A stretch of 41,860 nucleotides of DNA from NCBI GenBank assembly GCA_902519455.1, contig CABYJT010000003.1, positions 1-41,860 of the forward strand, written 5' to 3'. The stretch comes from an uncultured Pelagibacteraceae bacterium (lineage in GTDB: Bacteria > Pseudomonadota > Alphaproteobacteria > Pelagibacterales > Pelagibacteraceae). Below the pieces are notes generated by a model. The model searched no databases. It was not told where the DNA came from and saw only the letters and a program-made list of their open reading frames with translations. Numbering within the stretch: position 1 is the stretch's first letter; every line of letters begins with the position of its first letter. The position numbers and the translations under genes were made by a program. Shown piece by piece: positions 2,474-4,436 of the stretch.

Positions 2474-2875
2474 ATGAAAAAATTATTTCTAATTTTATTT
2501 GTATCATTTGGTTTAAACAGCTCTGTTTTTGCTGATGGTCATGTAAAAAGAATTTTATCAACTAGTCAGACTGGTATGGGTAACGATATTGTTTATCCAT
2601 CAGGAAAAGCAAAGATCACAGCTTTTGAATTTACTGTGCCCGTAGGAGGCCCTGTAGTTCCGCATACTCACTCGTTCCCTGTTTTAATAATGATTCAACA
2701 AGGAGAAATTGAACTTACTCAAGGTGGCAAAAGCTATGTTTATAAAGCTGGAGATGCATTTATTGAAGATGTAGGTGTGGCTCATGAATCTAAAAATATT
2801 GGAGATGTTCCTGTTAAAGCAATTGTTGTTGCTATGGGAGTTGAAGGTCAAAAAATTATGACTCCAGTAAAATAG
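2474..2875 (+). CDS. Cupin-domain protein with signal peptide
   Basis: N-terminal signal; VPHTHSFPVLIMIQQGEIEL and YKAGDAFIEDVGVAHE cupin motifs; AGAAAGG upstream of the start. Confidence 0.85.
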   Translation: MKKLFLILFVSFGLNSSVFADGHVKRILSTSQTGMGNDIVYPSGKAKITAFEFTVPVGGPVVPHTHSFPVLIMIQQGEIELTQGGKSYVYKAGDAFIEDVGVAHESKNIGDVPVKAIVVAMGVEGQKIMTPVK

Positions 2876-2884
2876 AAAGAAAAA

Positions 2885-2916
2885 ATATGGGGCAGTTATT
2901 TTTAGATGCCCCATAT
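2885..2916. terminator. Perfect 10-bp stem-loop (ATATGGGGCA...TGCCCCATAT), shared terminator between convergent genes
   Basis: Exact inverted repeat 2885-2894/2907-2916, lying between the 3' ends of the cupin gene (+) and the 63-aa ORF (-). Confidence 0.75.
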
Positions 2917-2929
2917 CTCATTCTTTAAG

Positions 2930-3121
2930 CTATATTTTTTTACTCTCTTTTTTCAAGTGTCTCAATGTTTCCCCGGAGTTTTTTCCTGATTTGATCACGT
3001 ATCCACTTGTGCCGTTGGCATTAGTTTCTACGGTTTTCAAATTTCGAAACATTAATTGATTTAGCCTAGCGTTCTTTGAGCCTCGGCTAAACGAACTTAA
3101 AACTCTGTGCATTCTTTTCAT
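2930..3121 (-). CDS. Small, strongly basic protein of unknown function (63 aa)
   Basis: ORF preceded on the minus strand by AAGGAGAG at good spacing from ATG; isolated gene with its own leader and a downstream terminator hairpin; 15 Lys/Arg against 3 Glu and no Asp. Confidence 0.7.
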   Translation of the reverse strand: MKRMHRVLSSFSRGSKNARLNQLMFRNLKTVETNANGTSGYVIKSGKNSGETLRHLKKESKKI

Positions 3122-3159
3122 ACACTCTCCTTGTTTGTTTTTCCAAAACTCGCTTTTAA

Positions 3160-3199
3160 CCGATGCGATATCGGCCTCTTTTTCACCATGAGATATGGT
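3160..3199 (-). promoter_or_regulatory. Two tandem 5-bp-stem/5-nt-loop hairpins (or palindromic operators) upstream of the 63-aa ORF
   Basis: Plus strand 3160-3174 CCGAT-GCGAT-ATCGG and 3185-3199 ACCAT-GAGAT-ATGGT; the arms differ by compensatory changes. Confidence 0.5.
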
Positions 3200-3284
3200 A
3201 TTAATAAATTATCTTTTACAAATAATATTTTCAATTAGTTAACTTATTATTATGACCAAACTGGGTTTTAAAATTGTTTAATAC

Positions 3285-4436
3285 TTAGAGAATAACTAAG
3301 TCTGTCTTTTGATTACCTAGTCTTTCATTTCCTTTTTCAGTAACAATGTAAGTCTCACCTAGATTCATAGCTAACTCTTTTTTACTATCCATTAGAATCA
3401 TGTGCATAAAGAAAACATTTCCTGGTTGGATTACATAAGGATTGCCTGTGTAAAGCATTGGCCAATCCATCCAATTAGGGGAAAATGTTGCACCTAATGA
3501 ATATCCACATGCATTCATCCGACAATCTTTATAACCTAAATTATCAAATATTTTTGCGTGCATATCAAAAACCTCTCCAATTTTATTGCCAGGTTTTAAT
3601 GTATTTTCACAGTTTTTTAATGCTTCTAAACAAGCCTCGTACATTTCATAATGTTTGGGATTTGCTTTTCCAATCGGTATAGTCCTGAACATTGCAGAAT
3701 GATAATGTCTATACGTGCCTGCCCATTCAATAGTTAGTTGATCTACATCATTAAGTATTTGTTTTTCTGATTGATATCTACATAGTAGTGCGTTTTTACC
3801 AGAACCTATTATAAATTCATTTGCAGGATAGTCCCCACCTCCTTCAAAAATTACTCTATTCATTTCAGCAAGAATTTTACTTTCACTCACTCCCTTTTTA
3901 GCAAATTTCCAAACTTCATCTAAAGCTTTGTCGGCAAGGGTTGCTGCTTTCTTAACATAAACTATTTCTTCAGGAGATTTAATTACTCTGAGTTTTGTTA
4001 TTAATTCAGATTTATCATCTAAAGAGCAAAAATTTTTTAATGATTTATTTAAATTAATTGCATTACGTCCAGTAAGTCCATAAGCTTCATACTCAATACC
4101 GATCTTTTTATCTTTTAAGTTAAGTTCGTTTAAGATTTGTTTTAGATCCTCTGTGGGATTAGAATCATCTTTATCAACCCAAATTTTTATATTTTCTATA
4201 TTTGAAGTATTTTGTGCTTGTCTTAAATCAGGAGCTCTAGTTAATAATATTAAATTACCTTTTTGGTCTAATATTAAGGACTGAAAAAAAACATAACCAA
4301 ATGTATCGTAACCAGTCAGCCAATACATAGACTCTTGTCTAAACATGACCAAGGCATCTATTTTTTCCTCTTTTAATTTAGTAATAACTTTATTTCGTCT
4401 ACTTTTGAATTCTTCTGAGGAAAAATGAAGACCCAT
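3285..4436 (-). CDS. M24 / creatinase-like 'pita-bread' hydrolase (metal ligands apparently missing)
   Basis: N-terminal creatinase-type domain (MFRQESMYWLTGYDTFGY) and C-terminal IEWAGTYRHYHSAMFRT ... GYSLG ... LGETYIVTEKG. Confidence 0.85.
   Translation of the reverse strand: MGLHFSSEEFKSRRNKVITKLKEEKIDALVMFRQESMYWLTGYDTFGYVFFQSLILDQKGNLILLTRAPDLRQAQNTSNIENIKIWVDKDDSNPTEDLKQILNELNLKDKKIGIEYEAYGLTGRNAINLNKSLKNFCSLDDKSELITKLRVIKSPEEIVYVKKAATLADKALDEVWKFAKKGVSESKILAEMNRVIFEGGGDYPANEFIIGSGKNALLCRYQSEKQILNDVDQLTIEWAGTYRHYHSAMFRTIPIGKANPKHYEMYEACLEALKNCENTLKPGNKIGEVFDMHAKIFDNLGYKDCRMNACGYSLGATFSPNWMDWPMLYTGNPYVIQPGNVFFMHMILMDSKKELAMNLGETYIVTEKGNERLGNQKTDLVIL

Follow-up and report, generated by a model that had tools for sequence, protein, structure and literature searches.

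A tandem-pseudoknot leader RNA and its small basic protein in SAR11 bacteria: a possible nitrogen-control cassette

The locus and its small basic protein

The window analysed here comprises 41,860 nucleotides of a contig (CABYJT010000003.1) from an uncultured Pelagibacteraceae bacterium. Between the genes of a cupin protein (2474-2875, plus strand) and an M24 peptidase (3285-4436, minus strand) it carries a short open reading frame, in the following called smORF, together with these features:

3208..3234, minus strand: probable promoter, TTGAAA (3229-3234) and GATAAT (3208-3213) with a 15-bp spacer, from sequence only
3176..3199, minus strand: pseudoknot 1, stem ACCAU/AUGGU, loop CUC pairing with GAG; covariation with three pairing types of the knot helix
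3150..3175, minus strand: pseudoknot 2, stem GCCGAU/AUCGGU, loop UCGC pairing with GCGA; covariation with six pairing types of the knot helix
3137..3149, minus strand: possible small hairpin, GUUUU-GGA-AAAAC, downstream of pseudoknot 2 and ahead of the Shine-Dalgarno sequence, seen in the sequence
3125..3132, minus strand: Shine-Dalgarno sequence motif AAGGAGAG, with AGGAG kept in nearly all orthologues
2930..3121, minus strand: ORF of a 63-aa basic protein, group A member of phrog_32989
2911..2921, minus strand: sequence ATGAGATATGG, an 11-nt perfect complement of CCATATCTCAT in the leader (3188-3198)
2880..2916, minus strand: intrinsic terminator, 10-bp perfect stem plus U6, from sequence and fold

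The original prediction had described a self-contained minus-strand ORF with an ATG preceded by a ribosome binding site, a TTGAAA box as possible -35 element and a perfect 10-bp terminator stem downstream. All of these are present in the sequence: TTGACA or TTGAAA occurs at a similar place in relatives, and the terminator consists of a perfect ATATGGGGCA/TGCCCCATAT stem followed by T6. Judging from the promoter motifs, the transcript would probably begin near 3199, i.e. at the first pseudoknot. A recount also returns the described charge bias (15 Lys and Arg against 3 Glu and no Asp), and the contrast in codon usage is seen as a GC3 of 0.41 compared to 0.16-0.24 in eight nearby genes. The unusual GC3, the changing neighbours and the viral homologues (see below) signal horizontal movement, in agreement with the suggested acquisition.

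A hairpin just downstream of the smORF, GGGGCACCTGGCAACAGAACGCCCC, looks like a terminator and is similar to the 3' end of the alphaproteobacterial tmRNA model (L003-L005, L169-L190, L207-L211). A tmRNA (RF01849) near the smORF was rejected, since the match reached 28 bits against a gathering score of 50 and covered the 3' hairpin only. The sub-threshold matches at the ends of L003 and L004 go back to a single hairpin that both share. The true ssrA is located on a different contig of G000, and weak extra matches are found elsewhere in relatives. By its sequence the element may thus be a hairpin or terminator that is dispersed in SAR11.

For 57 distinct coding sequences of the smORF family we obtained a median dN/dS of 0.127, and variable columns were distributed over codon positions 1/2/3 as 21/13/46. 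The protein is thus under purifying selection, and an untranslated non-coding RNA in place of the ORF is ruled out. The family shares a conserved core of N-G-T-x-x-Y-x-x-K-x-G-x-N. In agreement with the earlier statement that no domain family is recognised, searches of Pfam and NCBIfam returned none that fits. An AlphaFold2 model (pLDDT 73, pTM 0.43) places a helix at residues 2-26, followed by three short strands. It found no match in the PDB with E below 1, and a profile search of PDB sequences gave chance-like matches only, EF-hand loops among them, such that no known fold was recognised.

The window protein does match phrog_32989 (E 1.9e-9), as do all 13 of 13 family representatives. This phage family is annotated as of unknown function, and its members otherwise come from pelagiphages; its cellular members, the leader and the link to glnA described below are new here. 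Homologues occur in 29 of 61 close relatives. Of the 297 Pelagibacterales genomes 129 have one, as do 77 of the 150 good genomes in this set, and orthologues in Pelagibacteraceae genomes are 78-98% identical. A scan of genome contigs confirmed 109 stretches as relatives, and the 80 listed all belong to Pelagibacter, Pelagibacteraceae or Pelagibacterales; 289 sampled alphaproteobacterial genomes gave no match beyond the window's own genus. With relatives throughout Pelagibacterales and the codon pattern of a selected protein, the ORF exceeds what chance would provide.

The family forms two paralogous groups, A (the window type) and B, which occur together in one genome, G242. In a phage collection the window protein matched 25 records, 24 of them Pelagibacter phages, and a group B protein matched 28 (26 Pelagibacter phages), while at least 343 related stretches were found in IMG/VR. 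One phrog_32989-like match falls in an unannotated stretch of the pelagimyophage HTVC008M (KC465899.1, 18229-18333); such small genes may therefore be missed in other phage records as well. Group A is mobile: its upstream neighbourhoods fall into six clusters and its downstream neighbourhoods into ten (up to 80 loci), and it is not adjacent to glnA. Group B proteins have 56 aa, contain VETGANGTQDYVVKKG and keep a fixed position: NifU_N, FeS_assembly_P and Fe-S_biosyn genes precede them, and glnA is convergent (domains verified on L011). Many group B ORFs (L009-L027, L030, L243) are preceded within about 90 nt by repeats such as TTGCATATCAG..TTGCAT..ATGCATATCTG, and similar repeats precede the smORF of genus g6 (L227/L228). 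By their sequence these repeats resemble an operator, perhaps of a nitrogen regulator.

Two consecutive pseudoknots in the leader

The DNA upstream of the ORF had been taken as non-coding, but much of it is structured RNA, which had been overlooked. In aligned group A leaders a region of free variation ends at a sharp boundary, beyond which ACCATATCTCATGGTGAAAAAGAGRCCGATATCGCATCGGTTAAAAGCGAG is nearly fixed. Leaders of other genera explain this block: positions 3149-3199 (minus strand) form two consecutive, conserved H-type pseudoknots. Each has a stem of 5-6 bp and 3-4 loop nucleotides that pair just downstream across an A-rich linker.

In alignment A4, 99.6% of the cells were paired, compared to 20-34% for slid controls, and 7 pairs had changed on both sides. 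Since MAFFT misaligns an insertion in genus g8, pairs were also counted by explicit parsing of 23 leaders, from seven genera of the order, family f10, the phage contig L034 and contigs L476 and L491. Here 411 of 414 pairs hold, with extensive compensatory change. The knot helix of pseudoknot 1 occurs as CUC:GAG, CAC:GUG and GUC:GAC, and that of pseudoknot 2 with six loops (UCGC, CUAC, AGCC, GUAC, GUCC and CGAC), each with its matching partner. Knot partners were placed by position, without a search for complements, except in six g8 sequences with an inserted hairpin, for which the last strand was set after the A-run. None of 5000 whole-strand shuffles, which ignore relatedness, reached the observed pairing in any helix.

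Two further pairings show a narrower distribution. The hairpin at 3137..3149 is not kept outside the genus, and the complementarity of ATGAGATATGG, at the 3' end, to CCATATCTCAT in the pseudoknot leader is kept in one SAR11 subclade only; to judge by sequence, it is a possible alternative pairing or due to chance.

A scan with Rfam 15 gave no match for the tandem pseudoknot, and the passages that keywords retrieve from the 2009 survey of Pelagibacter RNAs (PMC2704228) describe no such motif. The leader is thus a well supported, undescribed tandem-pseudoknot RNA and a stronger discovery than the ORF itself. Protein and structured RNA, previously posed as alternatives, both exist: the leader holds the RNA, and the ORF that follows encodes the protein. 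In our judgement, which was not computed, it is nearly certain that the locus encodes a functional cis-regulatory RNA together with a translated protein.

Genes behind the pseudoknots and exchange with the glutamine-I riboswitch

With a covariance model (R1) the tandem pseudoknot was found once per genome in 41 of 297 Pelagibacterales genomes, as well as in three genomes from another part of the Alphaproteobacteria, family f10; these counts are lower bounds, since some g8 genomes with the insertion are missed or score low. Its position is the smORF locus in 39 of the 41 genomes. The other two belong to genus g5 and have another basic ORF, of 48 aa (MFYKDF...KERQSRPRAKENVINPSQKGI), behind the element; in family f10 it is followed by a third ORF of 39-41 aa (MLLTKNIIKFNN...ENRWGYKSLKKDI). 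The element is thus always found before a tiny ORF, and these ORFs form three unrelated families. A covarying structured RNA of the 5' UTR followed by different, unrelated genes is what is expected of a riboswitch.

Among viral contigs an exact-pattern scan, for which the pattern was too strict, found no pseudoknots, and the covariance model matched L034, L476 and L491. L034, which looks like a T4-like phage, carries pseudoknots and smORF together. L476 and L491 look cellular, with IscU- and SdhB-like genes identified by eye. For the ENRWGYK-motif family of 39-41 aa ORFs (L415-L494), at least 131 relatives occur in viruses, and most of these lack an upstream riboswitch or pseudoknot.

The glutamine-I riboswitch (RF01739) is absent from the window, which rules it out there, and none scored above the gathering score in the window's 61 relatives. 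It was found only for viral smORF orthologues and those of the sister SAR11 genus g7, where G125 and the complete genome G240 carry it (60.2 bits) directly before the orthologous smORF. No further match was obtained in the 297 genomes of the order. In G193 and G181, which also belong to g7, the tandem pseudoknot takes this position instead. Behind the riboswitch-led smORF of G240 lies a 63-aa cysteine-rich, zinc-ribbon-like ORF (L282:3363-3554, minus strand) that has its own Shine-Dalgarno sequence and no match in Pfam; it may be co-transcribed with the smORF.

In viruses RF01739 lies just upstream of the smORF in 7 of 7 records of one clade and in 0 of 43 other records. Glutamine riboswitches were located at 80 loci of viral contigs by a pattern scan, and a next ORF could be called at 73 of them. 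These ORFs are small (median 41 aa), and all 73 are net positive (median +6), a charge taken at face value, since phage ORFs that are small and AT-rich may frequently contain much lysine. They include 11 members of the smORF family, 13 ORFs with DUF4278-type YRG motifs and five of the g5 kind (one pair gave a BLASTP E of 6e-10, and searching the 73 gave 9e-6). Since smORF and g5-type ORFs follow RF01739 too, two unrelated families occur behind both RNA elements; the third, of f10 type, was not seen behind RF01739. More generally, viral glutamine riboswitches (L286-L365) nearly always lead tiny basic ORFs of several unrelated families, such as W..C peptides, DNPFYP, DUF4278-type YRG, KERQSRPR and phrog_32989.

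Interpretation and relation to known systems

The preferred reading is a single-gene cassette for nitrogen control, composed of a promoter, a 5' UTR opening with two H-type pseudoknots, the gene of the 63-aa basic protein and a terminator. The tandem pseudoknot would be a cis-regulatory metabolite riboswitch whose ligand reports nitrogen status, with glutamine as first guess, and the two copies possibly provide a steeper response. In analogy to the cyanobacterial glutamine riboswitches, high glutamine would lead to more of the small basic protein. This protein would in turn dampen glutamine synthetase (GS), or a partner in ammonium assimilation, by binding to it. The reading builds on the covarying structure, its link to tiny ORFs, its replacement by RF01739, the glnA-adjacent paralogue and the selection on the protein. 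We infer ligand, ON direction and protein target by analogy.

Leader and protein together look like the missing unit of nitrogen control because close relatives carry a known glutamine-sensing RNA at exactly the same site. Glutamine riboswitches have been reported before PII, GS and transporter genes as well, such that the RF01739 link supports 'nitrogen' more strongly than 'GS inhibitor'. For the smORF as a GS inactivating factor, size and charge fit, and the nitrogen link is drawn from the RF01739 and glnA contexts. GlnE, the GS adenylyltransferase, was found in 0 of 61 genomes and PII in 0 of 37 genomes of the window's genus, many of these genomes being incomplete. By analogy with IF7 in cyanobacteria, a dedicated small GS inhibitor would fill this gap. 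PII is present in the sister family f2, whose genomes carry both it and the pseudoknot, and the element is thus not merely a substitute for PII.

By judgement rather than computation, we hold control of the smORF by nitrogen status to be likely, glutamine as ligand to fall just short of an even chance and GS as target to be a slightly weaker proposition. The whole reading we put a little below evens. That the leader is a third natural class of glutamine riboswitch, which switches on small basic GS inhibitors in SAR11, another alphaproteobacterial family and at least one phage, we propose tentatively and with some doubt. As for the original prediction, an undescribed protein under selection is genuine, and its regulatory role stays plausible but was incomplete without the leader. 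The RNA- or ribosome-binding factor had been deduced from charge alone and found no support; the links to glutamine riboswitches and to glnA speak for nitrogen metabolism rather than nucleic-acid binding.

Several other explanations have to be weighed against the nitrogen-control cassette. The RNA evidence is compatible with any ligand, so the pseudoknots may respond to another metabolite (such as 2-oxoglutarate, a different amino acid than glutamine, or a nucleotide) and the small protein may have a target unrelated to GS; the varied genes behind RF01739 leave room for this. Orthologous genes with different riboswitch classes usually sense one ligand, as for the SAM and preQ1 classes, and two ORF families are common to RF01739 and the pseudoknots, which makes another ligand unlikely. 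Alternatively, the basic protein may bind the pseudoknots of its own mRNA and repress its own translation, as known for the autoregulatory leaders of ribosomal-protein mRNAs and the phage gene 32 mRNA. A small basic product, compact pseudoknots with conserved loops close to the start codon and tandem repeats suited to protein binding would fit. However, three unrelated proteins would each need to bind, and in g7 and viruses the same protein family has RF01739 in place of the pseudoknots, which leaves autoregulation improbable.

A domesticated phage gene whose product serves the phage, the takeover of the host or defence against phages, and whose leader merely stabilises the mRNA or aids strong translation, would agree with the spread of homologues in phages (25 to 28 records, besides at least 343 stretches from viruses), with the unusual GC3 and changing neighbourhoods, and with the T4-like phage contig that has leader and ORF together. 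Yet the compensatory change in both pseudoknots exceeds the needs of a stabiliser, the exchange with RF01739 is left without explanation, and group B keeps a stable chromosomal place next to glnA; we consider this origin of the function distinctly improbable.

Cells of SAR11 bacteria rank among the ocean's most abundant. For these bacteria the candidate riboswitch class and its small protein offer a testable handle on how ammonium assimilation is regulated without the usual proteins. The orphan phage family phrog_32989 is now joined to a putative host regulatory circuit, and the viral loci suggest that many marine viruses carry small proteins controlled by glutamine riboswitches to steer host nitrogen flow.

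Compact H-type pseudoknots near the start codon are also formed by the SAM-II and SAM-V riboswitches, and SAM-V has been found in SAR11 (PMC2704228). The window leader differs from them in sequence and by its tandem duplication, and it was unmatched in the Rfam scans. The glutamine-II riboswitch (Downstream-peptide motif, RF01704) is linked to nitrogen and leads ORFs of 17-100 aa without known family in marine bacteria (PMC2864571), similar to our leader and its short family-less ORFs. Its covariance model gave no match to the window leader at E up to 5, and it is reported from cyanobacteria and marine samples. The glutamine-I riboswitch (glnA motif, RF01739) is sometimes reported in tandem (PMC2864571) and shares the position about 25-90 nt before orthologous or homologous tiny basic ORFs, whereas the window leader consists of two H-type pseudoknots of other sequence and fold, without the GACGGAAGUAG core. 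Glutamine riboswitches have been called restricted to cyanobacteria (PMC6316151), with phage examples reported later (PMC9004378); the g7 genomes extend them to cellular alphaproteobacteria.

Both known types activate expression upon glutamine binding, and one controls gifB, which encodes the GS inactivating factor IF17 (PMC6316151). The cyanobacterial factor IF7 has 65 aa (PMC7760959). IF7 and IF17 (gifA, gifB) thus resemble the smORF product as small proteins, one of them under a glutamine riboswitch, the smORF product being small and basic. Viral DUF4278-type ORFs have the same riboswitch context, and among the A1 smORF members the family searches gave no match to DUF4278. If the leader is indeed such a third class of glutamine riboswitch, SAR11, where neither GlnE nor, within this genus, PII was detected, would possess an independent counterpart of the cyanobacterial IF-type control.
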